A stretch of DNA of 34,490 nucleotides from Blastocatellia bacterium (GTDB lineage: Bacteria > Acidobacteriota > Blastocatellia > HR10), in the NCBI GenBank assembly GCA_035573895.1, contig DATLZR010000131.1:1-34490 (forward strand), read 5' to 3'. The notes beneath the pieces are model-generated. The model was not told where the DNA came from and ran no database searches. It was given only the letters and a program-made list of their open reading frames with translations. Shown here piece after piece: positions 8,140 to 31,738 of the stretch. The position numbers and the translations under genes are program-made. How positions within the stretch are numbered: the first letter of the stretch is position 1; the number at the start of each line of letters is the position of its first letter.

Positions 8140-8223
8140 TGAGGCCGTCGTGAGAGAAAAGGAGCGCGGTTTCTCGCGTCCAGGCTGGAAGGCCTGTGAC
8201 ACAGTGTGTGAGGAGGAGACATC

Positions 8224-9786
8224 ATGAGTCGAATGTTTGTTCTCGGGCTTGTTTTGTTCGCAGTTGGCGGGATTGCCATCGGGTTGATCCACCGATCCTC
8301 TTCCTCGTCCAAACCATCTGTTCACATGGAGTCCGACTCGTCTCAGCAGCCGCCGGTGTCTCAAACCCAGCAACCGCCCAGGGACATCTTCGAACTGGAA
8401 CGCGCCCGAAATGCGCCGTTGCCGGGACTGGAGGCGCGGCTGGGGACGGACGACGGTTTTGTGGCCGCGATCTTTTACGGGGGCGATACCCTGGGCAGTC
8501 TGGAAGTTTGCGGCTGACCGAAAAATCCGTTGGGCGGCGTGGCACGTCGCCAGGGATACATTGTGCATTTCAAGAACCGCTTTCGTGGCGCTGCCATAGC
8601 GCATCTTGATACGGGCTACTTCTTCAGCGATCGTCTTGATTTCAATACCCGAAAGTTAGCTCGAGACGCTGCTGTCGGAAACGAGTGGGTCATTCGTGCG
8701 TATGATCATATCGGTGTGGATGCCGTCAATGTGTCATATCATGATTTACCTCAGATGGCAAACTGTTTCTCATCGGCGGAATTTAAACGACACGCCTCGA
8801 CGACGCCGGTAGTTCAGCGCTTCGTCTCAGCCAACGTTCGAGCCAGAAGTGGCCGGCACCAGAGTCCGCGTCCCTTCCTCATCAAAGAGCTTGTCGGGGA
8901 GCGCCTTGGGGCTCGGCCCCTGCGCCTCGGCATCGTGGGATTGACGGAGAAGGGGAATGCCTCTGACCCGACGTTTGTGATTGACGATCCGCTCCAGGCT
9001 GCGCGTCGCGTGATTCCTCAAGTGCGACCGCGGGTTGATCTCGTGGTGGTGATGGCCTACATGCAGCCTGAGGCCATCGAACAGCTCGTCCGGGAGAATC
9101 CTCAAATTGATATCGTCATTGCTGATCTGGGACGGCCTCAGGTTTACCCTCCCCGGACGATAGGAAAGACGTTTATCGCCTACACCTATTACCAGACAAA
9201 GTTACTCGGGGAACTGCGCCTGTACCGCGACGGACAAACGGGTAAAATCCGATTCAGCCATCGGGCCGTCGAACTTGATCGCGTGATTCCCGATGATCCC
9301 TCCACCGAACAACTCCGGGTGGAGGCCCGAAAGGAAATTGCTGCCATGCAGGAGCTAATTGTCCGGCAACTCCTCAGCGAACGACGGCGGGACAGGAGTT
9401 CGACGCGGGATGCTGTTGGCCCGACCTACGTGGGATCACAAACTTGTCAGCCCTGTCATGAAGCAGCTCACCGGGTGTGGGCACGATCCGGGCACGCCCG
9501 GGCCTACGCCACACTGCAAAAAGTCAAGCGGGAAAATGATCCGCAGTGCGTCATCTGTCACGTCACGGGGTGGGGTGAGCCGTCGGGATTTGTCAGTCTG
9601 GCCTCCACACCACTGCTGAAAGATGTTCATTGTGAGTCCTGCCATGGACCGGGATCGGAACATGTGGCTCGTCCGGCGCGCGGGTATGGTCATACGGTCA
9701 TGCCTGCTGGGTGCGTCTCCTGTCACACGCGAGAAAATAGCCCCGATTTCGAGCTTGTCAGCTACTGGGCGAGGATCAAGCATTGA
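8224..9786 (+). CDS. UshA-like tetraheme cytochrome, candidate selenoprotein (in-frame TGA, codon 98)
   Basis: Read through TGA at 8515-8517, this is one 520-residue protein. Residues 5-22 are a signal or anchor and 25-55 a Ser/Gln/Pro linker. Residues about 70-375 resemble the UshA/5'-nucleotidase-like metallophosphatase group: FYGGDTLGSLEVCG-U-PKNPLGGVARR, then HLDTGYFFSD, VNVSYHD and IVIADLGRP. Residues 400-505 carry four CXXCH heme sites (CQPCH 408, CVICH 442, CESCH 470, CVSCH 497), like cytochrome c554-type domains. So it should be exported and redox active. TGA sits where relatives, as I recall them, have Cys in a CGC motif; both halves are intact and in the same frame, and the downstream half has no Shine-Dalgarno. 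Several metal-ligand motifs of true UshA look degenerate, so phosphatase activity is uncertain. Start: ATG 8224, AGGAGG seven bases upstream. Alternative: nonsense mutation or base-call error (TGC/TGT to TGA). Confidence 0.72.
8515..8551 (+). promoter_or_regulatory. UGA codon plus bacterial SECIS-like hairpin
   Basis: After TGA (8515-8517, followed by C) comes an 8-base-pair stem, GGCGGCGT (8533-8540) with ACGTCGCC (8544-8551), one pair being G-U, and the loop GGC (8541-8543). The loop starts after 23 bases, within the 16-37 base window usual for bacterial selenocysteine elements, and it opens with GG as SelB-binding loops do. A lower TCC/GGA stem (8526-8528 with 8554-8556) is also possible. 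Confidence 0.6.
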
Positions 9787-9873
9787 TCAGAACACGGGTT
9801 CCCTTTCGTCGGGCTACGCCGAGGGGAGGGACTCATCGAGAACGAAGAGGAACGAAAGGCCTCCAGCTCGCTC

Positions 9874-10329
9874 ATGGAAGAAATTCTCGATCTGCTGCCT
9901 ACAATCCTGCGACAGATAGGCTATCAGGAAGCGGTCTGCGAGAAAGCCGTATGTGCCGCCTGGAACCGAATCGTTGGGGATGTGGTGTCGGCCAATGCCG
10001 TGCCCTTCCGGCTTTATGAGGGACGTCTCATCGTTTTGACAAGCGATGCCACGTGGAAGAAACAGCTCGAGGCAATATCGCCGGAAATTCTTTACAAAAT
10101 GAATCGGTTGCTCGGGGCCGATATCGTCAAATTCATCGAATATCGGATTGATCCCTACTACACTCGAGGTCAACGACACCAGGAGTTGGAGATTCGATTC
10201 CGTCGTCTGGACGAGATCATCCGCGACCTCGAACCCCTCGTCCGGGACCTTGCCGATGCGGAGCTTCGGGCGGCCTTCCTTCGCGCGGCTAGTAAGTGCA
10301 TTGAGAGAATCGAAGGGGAGTCCGAATGA
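9874..10329 (+). CDS. dciA: DciA-like (DUF721) protein
   Basis: A 151-residue protein whose first 90 residues match the DUF721/DciA type: AAWNRIVGDVVSANAVPFRLYEG, read in parts, gives the conserved W and the VG..A.P pattern, and VLTSDATWKKQLEAISPEIL gives the conserved W-QL. DciA helps load the replicative helicase DnaB in bacteria lacking DnaC or DnaI. The C-terminal 50 residues form a charged helix (RRLDEIIRDLEPLVRDLADAE). The start ATG at 9874 has only a weak ribosome site. It lies 87 bases after the cytochrome gene on the same strand, possibly in the same transcript. Many DUF721 proteins are uncharacterised, so the helicase-loader role is by family only. Confidence 0.75.
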   Translation: MEEILDLLPTILRQIGYQEAVCEKAVCAAWNRIVGDVVSANAVPFRLYEGRLIVLTSDATWKKQLEAISPEILYKMNRLLGADIVKFIEYRIDPYYTRGQRHQELEIRFRRLDEIIRDLEPLVRDLADAELRAAFLRAASKCIERIEGESE

Positions 10330-27514: not shown

Positions 27515-28462
27515 TCATCGCCGTGGAGTTCTCTCACCCCCTTCTATGTAGATGAACTCCGCCCGTCGGTTCAATGCCCAGGCTCGCTCGTCGTGGCCGG
27601 GATCCGCCGGTCGAGTTTCGCCGAAGCTGATCGTCTGAATCCGTTCGGCGGCGATTCCCAGGCTCATGAGGAACTCCTTGACGGCGTTAGCACGTCGGTC
27701 GCCCAGGGCCAGATTATATTCTTCCGTCCCGCGTTCGTCGCAGTGTCCTTCTATTCGGAAAATTATTGTTCTGTTCTCCGACCGGGAGAGCCAATCGGCG
27801 GCCCGGCGGAGTCGGGCCTGTGCTTCTTCATCAAGTTCCGCGCTATCGAAGGCGAAGTAGACGACGTGGACGGCAGCGGCGAACTCCTCCGGGATGTTGC
27901 GTGGGGGTGGAGGCGGCGGCGGAGGTGGCGGGGGCGGAGGAGGTTCGGTGACAGTCAGCCGTGCGCTGGCCGATGCCTCCCCGCCGGGTCCTCGTGCGAT
28001 GGCCGAATACGTCGTTGACTGAGAGGGCGAGACACTCCGACTCCCACTGACTTCGACCGGGCCGATCCCGGAAATTTCGACGGAGTTAGCGTGTTCGCTC
28101 TGCCAGCGGAGTGTTGCGCTTCGGCCTCGTTCGATGACCGAGGGCTCCACTGACAATGTGATCGTTGGACGGGGTGGCGGAGGGATCACCTCGACGCGGG
28201 CCGTTGCTCTCGCTTCGCGCGAGCCGCGCTTGCCCACGAGTTCAAAAGTTGTCGTTTCGCGTGGAGCGACCCGCGTTGATCCCGACTTTGCAACGGGTTG
28301 GTTGTTCAGGGTGACCGTTCGCGCATGCTTTGATGTCCAGGTTAATTCGACCTCCTCACCCTGATTGATTCGTTCCTTTGACGCGGTCAATGAGACTTGG
28401 GGACGGCACGCTGACCCCAGAATGGCAACGGCAGCAAGGCACAACAAGACGCTCTTTTTCAT
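27515..28462 (-). CDS. pal: Peptidoglycan-associated lipoprotein Pal, extended
   Basis: A 315-residue lipoprotein. The signal MKKSVLLCLAAVAILGSAC has a lipobox (LGSAC) with Cys 19 as acylation site. Two Ig-like domains follow (residues about 22-95 and 98-180: VSLTASKERINQGEEVELTW and ITLSVEPSVIERGRSATLRW), then 14 consecutive prolines. The C-terminal OmpA-like domain (about 200-305) has VYFAFDSAELDEEA, IEGHCDERGTEEYNLALGDR and ISFGETRPADPG, which bind diaminopimelate peptidoglycan. Typical Pal is about 170 residues, so the Ig part is extra and lengthens the reach from outer membrane to cell wall. The ATG at 28462 is 19 bases after the tolB stop. Confidence 0.92.
   Translation of the reverse strand: MKKSVLLCLAAVAILGSACRPQVSLTASKERINQGEEVELTWTSKHARTVTLNNQPVAKSGSTRVAPRETTTFELVGKRGSREARATARVEVIPPPPRPTITLSVEPSVIERGRSATLRWQSEHANSVEISGIGPVEVSGSRSVSPSQSTTYSAIARGPGGEASASARLTVTEPPPPPPPPPPPPPPRNIPEEFAAAVHVVYFAFDSAELDEEAQARLRRAADWLSRSENRTIIFRIEGHCDERGTEEYNLALGDRRANAVKEFLMSLGIAAERIQTISFGETRPADPGHDERAWALNRRAEFIYIEGGERTPRR
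27902..27943 (-). repeat. Poly-proline codon tract in pal (14 Pro)
   Basis: Forty-two bases of CCN codons encode 14 consecutive prolines between the Ig-like and OmpA-like domains of Pal. Codons vary (CCT, CCG, CCC, CCA), so it is a selected protein linker and not a simple DNA microsatellite. Such runs normally require EF-P for translation. Confidence 0.8.
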
Positions 28463-28481
28463 GATGTCCCCCCAGGAAAGG

Positions 28482-29822
28482 TTATGGTGACCATGCCGGT
28501 AGTCGTCCACCGGAGGTCGTGATTTGTTTTATGCCCGTTCCGTCAATGTGCATGATGTAGATCTCGGACCGACCTGTCCGGTCTGATTGAAAAGCGAGGT
28601 GGCGACCATCGGGAGACCAGGTCGGACTCTCGTTGTTCCCAACGCCATCGGTGAGCTGGAGGATCTCACGGGTCGCCACATCGAGAAGAAAGATGTCGAA
28701 TGTCGCCGCCTCCGGCGGACGCCAGGCGAAAGCGATATAGCGTCCATCCGGGGACCAGGCGGGAGAATCTGCCGAACCTCCGCGATCCAGGAGTCGGCGG
28801 AGGTTGGTTCCATCGGCGTCAATGACGTAAATCTGTGGAGTCCCGCTACGATTTGAGATGAAGGCGATTTCCCGACCGGTTCGAGGATTCCAGCGGGGCG
28901 ACGAGTGAATCACTGACGGCTCATCGGTGAGCTGGCGGATCGTCTTTCCATCGCTGGATGCAACATAGAGCTGCGTGCTGTTACTGTCTTTGCTCGAACA
29001 AAAGGCGATCCACCGTCCATCGGGAGAAAAGACGGGTGACAGGGTCGTGCCCTGACTGAAGTGAGGGAAGGGGATAAGGGATCCATCCCTGACCGAACGA
29101 ATGCGAATGTTGGGTACCCCGGTGGCAAAGGAGACATAGGCGATCTTCTGCCCATCCGGAGACCATGCGGGCAACAAGGCGAGCGATCCTTCCTGTGTCA
29201 ATGGGCGAATCGAGGCTCCGTCATAGTCCATGAGGTAAATTTCACTGCGCCGGCCGGATCCTGAGACAAAGGCAATCTGGCTGGTGGCGATGCCTGGTCT
29301 GCCGGTGAGGGCCTTGACGATTTCGTCAGCCACGCGATGAGCGATCCGCCGGGCTTGATCGCGTGACCCCCGATGCTGAACAGAAAGGATCTTGGTGCGG
29401 GCCGGCACGTCGTAGAGATAAGCCTCGACGATAAGCTCTTGGGGATCGGCGGCAACGTTGCCGAAAACCAGATAATCAGCCCGTGTGGGATCGCTGCTCC
29501 AGCGAGCGAAATCCACCTGTGAAGGGTCGGCCGGTTTCTGATTGGGATAGAGGCTCCGACCGACGACGTGGGCGACGGCAGCAAATGTAAGATCGTCAAA
29601 CAAGACCTGACTGATCGTTGCCGCCGCCGATTCTGCTCTCTCGGTTCGCGGAGCAAAATCGGCGACCGCCAGGGACGGCCCGCTTCCGGGTGTGACGATG
29701 ATTTTGCCAATTTCCTGCTTCAGCGGTTGCTGCCCCACGCCTTGGGATGGCGGGATCAGCGCAGCCATACCGAGCAGCGCGATGCCAACCTGTCGTCGTT
29801 CAAAGCGGAATCCCCACATCAT
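28482..29822 (-). CDS. tolB: Tol-Pal system protein TolB
   Basis: A 446-residue periplasmic protein: signal peptide (residues about 8-30, VGIALLGMAALIPPSQG), an N-terminal alpha/beta domain (about 35-180, VADFAPRTERAES, DYLVFGNVAADPQELIVEAY) and a six-bladed beta-propeller (about 185-445) with repeats of SPDGRxIAF type: SPDGQKIAYVS, SPDGRWIAFCSS, REIAFISNRSG, SPDGRYIAFAW, SPDGRHLAFQSDRTG. TolB binds Pal and TolA. The ATG at 29822 overlaps the tolA-like TGA by one base (TGATG), showing translational coupling. The next gene, pal, begins 19 bases after the stop. Confidence 0.94.
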   Translation of the reverse strand: MMWGFRFERRQVGIALLGMAALIPPSQGVGQQPLKQEIGKIIVTPGSGPSLAVADFAPRTERAESAAATISQVLFDDLTFAAVAHVVGRSLYPNQKPADPSQVDFARWSSDPTRADYLVFGNVAADPQELIVEAYLYDVPARTKILSVQHRGSRDQARRIAHRVADEIVKALTGRPGIATSQIAFVSGSGRRSEIYLMDYDGASIRPLTQEGSLALLPAWSPDGQKIAYVSFATGVPNIRIRSVRDGSLIPFPHFSQGTTLSPVFSPDGRWIAFCSSKDSNSTQLYVASSDGKTIRQLTDEPSVIHSSPRWNPRTGREIAFISNRSGTPQIYVIDADGTNLRRLLDRGGSADSPAWSPDGRYIAFAWRPPEAATFDIFLLDVATREILQLTDGVGNNESPTWSPDGRHLAFQSDRTGRSEIYIMHIDGTGIKQITTSGGRLPAWSP

Positions 29823-30622
29823 CAGTACTGGAAATATATCTCGGCGAAAGCTTCACGAATTCCCGGAAGGAAATCCCCGGGAAAGGGAATGGGATTTCGG
29901 TTTAACTCGAGCAAGGCAGCTTCGACACGGGCATCGATCACGGGATTGCCGCTCCGGGTGACGAACGCCAGGGGGTCGAGACGACCATTCACGATCGAAA
30001 GAACCCTGCCCGTCCGATCAAATCTCACGCGCACGACGACAAACCGTGAGTTCCCGGAGTGAGAAGGTGCATAGCGATAATAGCTCATAAGCGCTTGTTG
30101 CAAACGACGGCCGTAATCGGATCCACCGGGAATCCCCTGGCTGCCGAATCCTTCTCCGATTCCAATCCCTCCTCGCAGCCCAAAAGGGGCCGTCGGGGAG
30201 CCACCCGTTGCGGCAGATGGTGTCCCAATCCGAGGCGGAGAGAAGAGTCGCGGAGCCGGTGCAACAGGTTTTTCGGTTGGTTGTGAGACAGGTGAGCGCG
30301 GGGGCGTCTCGAGAGCGATGTCCTCTTTTCCTGCGCTCGGCCCCCCACTCTGGTGCATTAACTGCTTACGAGCCTCAAGTGCCGCTTCGGACGGTGCAAC
30401 CGAGGGAACCTCTGAGGGGGAGACGATACCGATGGCCACAGCTCCTCCCGTGGTTCCCTCTCCGGCAACAGCTATGAAGGTCTCGTTGCGCGGAGATCGC
30501 CAGCGCGAGATACCCACCAGCAGACAGAGCAAAAGCGCATGAGCGAGCACCGAGATGAGGAGCGACCGACCGTAGATGTCGTTGATGTGAAGTTGCGATG
30601 GGCCGGCGATCCTCATGATCAC
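29822..30622 (-). CDS. tolA: TolA/TonB-like protein
   Basis: A 266-residue inner-membrane protein in the tolA position of the operon. One TM segment near residues 22-40 (LLISVLAHALLLCLLVG), a Pro/Ser/Gly-rich periplasmic linker (about 50-170) and a TonB C-terminal-like domain (about 180-262: FVVVRVRFDRTGRVLSI, NPVIDARVEAALLELN). It lacks the long Ala/Lys helix of enterobacterial TolA, so it is better called TolA/TonB-like. It would connect the TolQR motor with TolB and Pal. The GTG at 30622 overlaps the tolR stop by four bases (GTGA); an in-frame ATG at 30616 is also possible. The stop overlaps the tolB start. Confidence 0.85.
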   Translation of the reverse strand: MIMRIAGPSQLHINDIYGRSLLISVLAHALLLCLLVGISRWRSPRNETFIAVAGEGTTGGAVAIGIVSPSEVPSVAPSEAALEARKQLMHQSGGPSAGKEDIALETPPRSPVSQPTEKPVAPAPRLFSPPRIGTPSAATGGSPTAPFGLRGGIGIGEGFGSQGIPGGSDYGRRLQQALMSYYRYAPSHSGNSRFVVVRVRFDRTGRVLSIVNGRLDPLAFVTRSGNPVIDARVEAALLELNRNPIPFPGDFLPGIREAFAEIYFQY

Positions 30623-31056
30623 TTGAGTGGCTCGGTCACGAGATTGACGCTGGCTCCCGCCGATCGGCAGAGACTCAGGACGTAGGCGATAATACGGTAG
30701 GGGGTTTCTCCATCACCCCGAATGAAAACACGCTTGTCGCTGGATTGAGAGAGGCGCTCGGTGAGCCGGGCCGGTAGATCATCAACGGGTATGGCATCAT
30801 GTCCCATTCTTCCGGCTGTGCCGAGATAGATGTTCCCCTGCTGATCAATGGTGATGATGATGGCGCGGCTGGGTGGGGGCTGAGCTTCGACCGTCTTTGT
30901 TTTGGGAAGTGTCACGCGAATTCCCGTCTGCAAGAGCGGCGCCGTAATCATGAAGATGACCAGCAATACGAGCATGACGTCAACGAGGGGCGTCACATTG
31001 ATCTCGGAGAGGGTTGTGAGGCCCCGGTTATGATGATGAAGATCGGATAAGGCCAT
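30619..31056 (-). CDS. tolR: TolR/ExbD-family protein
   Basis: A 145-residue ExbD/TolR protein. The single TM segment carries [18 protein letters not shown], including the conserved Asp needed for proton-driven motor function. The periplasmic part contains [33 protein letters not shown] and a final [13 protein letters not shown], the usual TolR dimerisation domain. With TolQ it makes the inner-membrane motor energising Tol-Pal. The ATG at 31056 overlaps tolQ by 29 bases; the open frame reaches 31095 but the extra residues are not family-like. Position between tolQ and a tolA-like gene supports TolR over ExbD. Confidence 0.9.
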
Positions 31057-31738
31057 AGGGCATGGGAGACCGCTCGGCGCGGGCCAGGAGTTCAAGCATG
31101 AATTGCTCCGTCAGCGCCGAAAGTGAGCGAAGCCGGGCGACGAAATAGTTGTGGGCGAAATAAGCGGGCACGGCGGCAAATAGTCCCAGAGCAGTGGCCG
31201 CCAGCGCCTCAGCGATCGCGGGGGCAACGGTTTCGATCGAGGGTTGGACGCTCGACGAGAGTCCCTCGAAGGCCATGATGATCCCGACAACAGTTCCGAA
31301 AAGTCCAATGAAAGGGGCAGTCGTTCCGATGGAAGCGAGCCAGGGAATACCCGCTTCGAGCTGACTTACGGAGGCTAGTGCTGTCTTTCTCAGCGTGCGT
31401 TCTAGGACTGTGGCCCGAGCTACAGCCTCACCCTCTGGAAGTTCCTCCGACCGTGACAGCTCAGTATGACTAGCCAGATAAAGAGCAGCCAGGGGACTAC
31501 GAGGAAAGCGGCGGGATGCTCGAAGTGCTTCGCGGGTGTTAGAAAGGTCGGCGACGGCGGTGAGAAACTCGTGAGATTCGCGCAGAGCGTGTCGGATCAT
31601 CTGATATTTGCTGATGATGATGGCCCAGGAGACGATCGAGAGTGCAAGAAGAAGACCCATGATGACGAGGGAGGGCAGCGATGCATGAGCGATCAGACGA
31701 ACGAGATGTTCCGTTGAGCTTTGAATAATGACTGTCAT
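31028..31738 (-). CDS. tolQ: TolQ/ExbB/MotA-family proton channel protein
   Basis: A 236-residue protein with three TM segments: about residues 18-40 ([20 protein letters not shown]), 135-160 ([20 protein letters not shown]) and 175-200 ([20 protein letters not shown]). The [16 protein letters not shown] and GI.EAL.ATA.GL..A.PA.. patterns are those of TolQ/ExbB. It forms the pentameric stator with TolR. The ATG at 31738 has GGAG close upstream and a near-consensus promoter. First gene of the tol operon. Confidence 0.92.

Follow-up and report, generated by a model that had tools for sequence, protein, structure and literature searches.

The gene at 8224-9786 on the forward strand of the window (the whole stretch of DNA analysed, 34,490 nt in length) is, with a probability of roughly 0.96, a member of the known UshA-like CxU selenoprotein family, its product most likely an exported, membrane-anchored redox protein. 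The TGA at 8515-8517 almost certainly encodes selenocysteine (Sec), and comparative analysis strongly supports the predicted insertion of Sec at residue 98. The original prediction had read the locus as a selenoprotein gene, and that reading is borne out by the residue-98 column of the homologues, the Sec machinery of the genome and a SECIS-type hairpin. The features of the locus are:

8210-8218, forward strand: putative purine-rich ribosome-binding site ahead of the ATG at 8224, read directly as GAGGAGGAG ACATC ATG
8224-9786, forward strand: full predicted selenoprotein gene, UshA-like domain fused to a tetrahaem cytochrome domain, 520 residues with Sec98
8224-8298, forward strand: N-terminal hydrophobic segment (signal or membrane anchor), identified by inspection only, MSRMFVLGLVLFAVGGIAIGLIHRS
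8437-9276, forward strand: 5'-nucleotidase/UshA-like fold domain, approximately residues 72-351, metal-site motifs mostly lost
8515-8517, forward strand: in-frame TGA, predicted Sec codon, residue 98, motif C-G-U-P; Cys/TGA column in all compared homologues, Sec machinery genes in the genome
8533-8551, forward strand: putative bacterial SECIS hairpin, 8 bp stem (8533-8540/8544-8551), loop GGC (8541-8543), TGA-loop spacing of 23 nt
9436-9753, forward strand: C-terminal multihaem domain, four CXXCH motifs starting at residues 408, 442, 470 and 497, Pfam Cytochrome_C554 E value 2e-16

Translation of 8224-9789 gave one reading frame, 8224-9786, closed by a terminal TGA at 9784-9786. As originally claimed, this frame is split by TGA alone: the sole internal TGA is that at 8515-8517, codon 98 of 520, with 97 codons ahead of it and 422 behind, making 520 residues including Sec98. 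The downstream frame had been described as 418 intact codons; intact it is, with no other lesion, but the true count is 422, and 418 is the length of a mechanically listed ORF that begins at TTG 8530. Identity to the sister-genus ortholog L036 at codon positions 1, 2 and 3 was 0.57, 0.62 and 0.37 upstream of the TGA, and 0.69, 0.75 and 0.38 downstream. Because positions 1 and 2 are far more conserved than position 3, the region evolves as protein-coding sequence on both sides of the TGA. Together with relatives that match across the TGA, this codon pattern makes a chance origin of the interrupted frame very unlikely.

Homologues were sought in 98 related genomes by whole-genome search, from which all of the relatives derive; short-peptide-pattern scans of genome and viral contigs and tblastn of plasmids yielded none. 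Among the 98 genomes, near full-length relatives with 56-58% identity were found in a sister genus of the same family, the match spanning the TGA. Two other families of the order contained relatives with 45% (genome G007) and 44% identity, and those elsewhere in the class had approximately 34-41% identity. The original prediction held that TGA had replaced a conserved Cys codon, and proposed homologue alignment as the check. At residue 98, every one of the 30 homologous loci, the window gene included, has either TGA (13) or Cys (17), and nothing else. A motif-based set of 44 sequences contained 24 TGA and 20 Cys genes, but this motif search itself demanded U or C at residue 98, so the 30-locus count is the unbiased one. 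C96, G97, position 98, P99 and the four CXXCH motifs were invariant in 21 aligned sequences. The in-frame TGA thus aligns with the Cys of homologues within a frame conserved on both sides, which is the pattern used to recognize bacterial selenoproteins, and TGA recurs at this codon in distantly related genomes from several families, where the frame likewise continues. The matches in genomes G008 and G009 contained three and four TGAs, respectively. These counts probably reflect read-through past the gene end, since in the G008 match (L057), on which this judgement is based, each TGA that follows the Sec codon is located where the homologous region ends or farther on.

The source genome, a draft of 184 contigs (3.90 Mb, 97% complete), was searched for selA, selB, selD and the selC tRNA, the genes that the original prediction had singled out, and all were found. 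SelA (596.6 bits), SelB (356.8 bits) and SelD (369.2 bits) scored above their cut-offs, and a tRNA-Sec (73.8 bits) was given the anticodon TCA by ARAGORN, so that the SelA, SelB, SelD and tRNA-Sec(UCA) expected of a genome with bacterial selenoproteins are all encoded. SelD is often itself a selenoprotein at the GAG-U-ACK site. The selD gene of this genome (G000:C126:7770-8696, minus strand) carries an in-frame TGA in the context SHGAGUACKLS, and its product is probably also a selenoprotein; the genome therefore appears to have at least two, UshA-like and SelD. Among the related genomes compared, the presence of SelA and tRNA-Sec did not separate Sec genomes from Cys genomes, as nearly all have both. 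Separately, two long tRNAs matched the tRNA-Sec model with an ARAGORN anticodon of GCA (Cys): L084, near 1464 (G025:C7:10964), and L085, near 1481 (G036:C85:25781). Both resemble tRNA-Sec-like tRNA-Cys genes. ARAGORN made no call for two comparable Rfam matches, in G017:C5 and G040:C29.

A bacterial SECIS element has been modelled as a stem of 4-16 bp with a loop of 3-9 nt and a G in the first two loop positions, located 16-37 nt from the TGA, with a minimum free energy of at most -7.5 kcal/mol (PMC13188914). The window hairpin agrees with this model in its GGC loop, 8 bp stem and 23 nt spacing, and the 52 nt after the TGA fold at -17.7 kcal/mol, within the energy limit. Rfam, at the gathering threshold, gave no match in the window. 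Taken alone, the hairpin is weak evidence for Sec, because a stem as long as this one arose in 205 of 5000 synonymous resamplings (4%) and the fold was no more stable than dinucleotide shuffles (z -0.37). As the single-sequence folding z-score was uninformative, we relied on the comparison of Sec and Cys genes and on covariation. A stem of 7 to 11 bp whose loop (GGC or GTC) lay at +23 or +28 was present in all 24 TGA genes, versus three of the 20 Cys genes (L035 and L037, both of the sister genus, and L059), counts that come from related sequences. The +23 register was found in two of the TGA genes and the +28 register in 22. Across 21 distinct sequences of the +28 register the stem was 100% paired, every pair in every sequence, and sliding the stem partner by 1 to 3 columns lowered pairing to 19-48%. 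In the same 21 sequences, 14 cells were changed on both sides, versus a shuffled mean of 3.8, with such changes in three pairs; this covariation covers the +28 register only, the window's own +23 register having just two TGA genes. Across the family, these comparisons argue strongly for a SECIS-type hairpin.

The best-placed alternative is that the TGA is a real stop, the product of a recent nonsense mutation or pseudogene formation at the Cys codon. In its favour, residue 98 is encoded by an intact Cys codon in the closest sister genus, and TGA is one base away from TGC or TGT. We nevertheless regard a real stop as very improbable, given the same-codon TGA, followed by a continuing frame, in remote genomes belonging to several families, the complete set of Sec-insertion genes and the 422 downstream codons free of any other lesion. 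Slightly less probable again is a one-base sequencing or assembly error in the Cys codon: the window comes from a single draft assembly, but the TGA occurs independently in many other genomes, including G007, where the hairpin sequence downstream of the TGA is nearly identical to that of the window. Least credible of all is a pair of separate genes, the second starting internally at TTG 8530, for although the mechanical ORF listing shows exactly that split, as the original prediction expected of automatic annotation, its further claim that the second half lacks a start signal also held on inspection (no ribosome-binding-type motif lies upstream of TTG 8530, and the purine-rich GAGGAGGAG immediately precedes ATG 8224), the homologues are one continuous protein over the split point, and the split falls within the conserved CG[UC]PxxPxGG motif. 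Standard gene calling cuts the predicted selenoprotein gene in two, and the join is lost.

With the TGA read as a Sec codon, the phylogeny suggests a recent switch. In a midpoint-rooted tree with long branches, the window gene and the four sister-genus Cys genes formed one group (support 95/95), with the long-branched Sec gene of G007 outside it (99/97). The most economical interpretation is a recent Sec-to-Cys replacement in the sister genus, suggested by the Cys of that genus and by the hairpin still present in two of its genes. Of the three sister-genus Cys genes that were scored, L035 and L037, but not L036, retained the +23 hairpin and its GGC loop, as a leftover of Sec ancestry would be. 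The fourth gene, L038, was missed by the motif search and hence unscored, and its minimum-energy fold does not show the hairpin. The Sec system has not been lost from the sister genus, as SelA is present and tRNA-Sec was found in four of five genomes. The locus offers a clean, naturally occurring comparison of the Sec form with the Cys form inside one taxonomic family.

An AlphaFold2 model of the protein was confident over most of residues 70-380, with low confidence in most of the haem region, and its best PDB matches by Foldseek were 5'-nucleotidases (E values of about 1e-13 to 4e-15). Profile alignment placed the DTHAHLE of a Thermus 5'-nucleotidase over the segment DIHGSLE just ahead of CGC, and the rest of the domain was covered by alignment to YfkN. 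Active UshA/5'-nucleotidases have a two-metal site built from DxH, GNHE, H and GHxH, motifs that the window protein has mostly lost. The D of DxH is retained and the His, present in many relatives, is Leu; GNHE and GHxH are not retained in the alignment. Canonical nucleotidase activity is therefore unlikely on these motifs. The C-terminal domain is a c-type cytochrome domain by Pfam Cytochrome_C554 (61.1 bits, cut-off 20.8), with the Cys and His of all four CXXCH motifs invariant among 21 aligned relatives.

From the computed frame, Cys/Sec exchange, machinery genes, hairpin and domains, we infer that Sec is actually inserted, that the protein is exported and has a redox role, and that electrons pass between CGU and the haems. 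The ribosome would read the UGA at 8515-8517 as Sec via SelB, Sec-tRNA(UCA) and the hairpin that closely follows the codon. The product, most likely exported and membrane-anchored, would carry a Cys96-Gly-Sec98 redox pair in a loop of the nucleotidase-fold domain, which would swap electrons with the C-terminal tetrahaem domain. The most plausible role for CGU is a redox one, coupled to the haems. We give even odds to a broader proposal, that the protein comes from a branch whose phosphoesterase fold no longer has its metal chemistry and has turned into a CxU/CxC redox module wired to a tetrahaem cytochrome, forming an extracytoplasmic seleno-oxidoreductase.

A 2008 study of ocean metagenomes described UshA-like CxU selenoproteins, in a table entry 'COG0737, UshA-like, CxU', and, among families whose Cys-based redox motifs are conserved, it named UshA-like, SelD and FdhA as exceptions (PMC2398784). 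The family is also listed in PMC9312934 and PMC13188914, and these three reports bear out the statement in the original prediction that Sec-containing UshA-like proteins have been described. The window gene is a sound new instance of a family catalogued since 2008, and no new kind; what still makes it of interest is its fusion to a cytochrome, its eroded metal site and the switch between Sec and Cys. In the selenoprotein literature searched, no report of a biochemical role of the catalogued family was found, and a search for the motif name PCGU gave no match.

The window protein shares with the UshA-like CxU family (COG0737; NF041198, UshA_like_PCGU) the UshA-like domain, the C-x-U motif and the occurrence of both Cys and Sec forms. 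NF041198 was the best NCBIfam match (2.7e-71, 240.7 bits over two stretches), short of the curated cut-off of 275, and we call the protein a divergent relative rather than a formal member of the model. Two sister-genus Cys orthologs also scored below 275 (242.2 and 243.1 bits), so the whole branch is probably divergent. The CxU/CxC motif is at the expected place (VCGU, residues 95-98) and the C-terminal region aligns through to the model end, whereas VCGU differs from the PCGU of the model name and the DxH His is Leu. UshA-like (seleno)protein family 2 (NF049981) weakly matched the N-terminal part of the UshA-like domain (25.9 bits, well short of the cut-off, 140), and the motif reported for that family is CxxU, unlike the CxU of the window protein. 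The 5'-nucleotidase/UshA, YfkN and CD73 metallophosphoesterases share the fold before the haem region and remote sequence similarity, but the window protein is without GNHE- and GHxH-type motifs and has a C-terminal cytochrome domain. Cytochrome c554 (1bvb) has a similar multihaem CXXCH domain (E value 7.5e-17 from the family profile), which in the window protein is instead a C-terminal domain joined to the UshA-like domain.

The same genome encodes a second, more canonical UshA/SoxB-related protein (L019, G000:C21:40132-40977), with no TGA in the matched stretch. In the window, the selenoprotein gene is followed by a DciA/DUF721 gene at 9874-10329. The L035 ortholog, too, has a reading frame of this kind after it, so this gene order may be conserved in the family. 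Elsewhere in the window, the minus-strand region 27515-31738 looks, by inspection of translations, like a Tol-Pal cluster with Pal-like, TolB-like, TonB/TolA-like, ExbD/TolR-like and ExbB/TolQ-like members.
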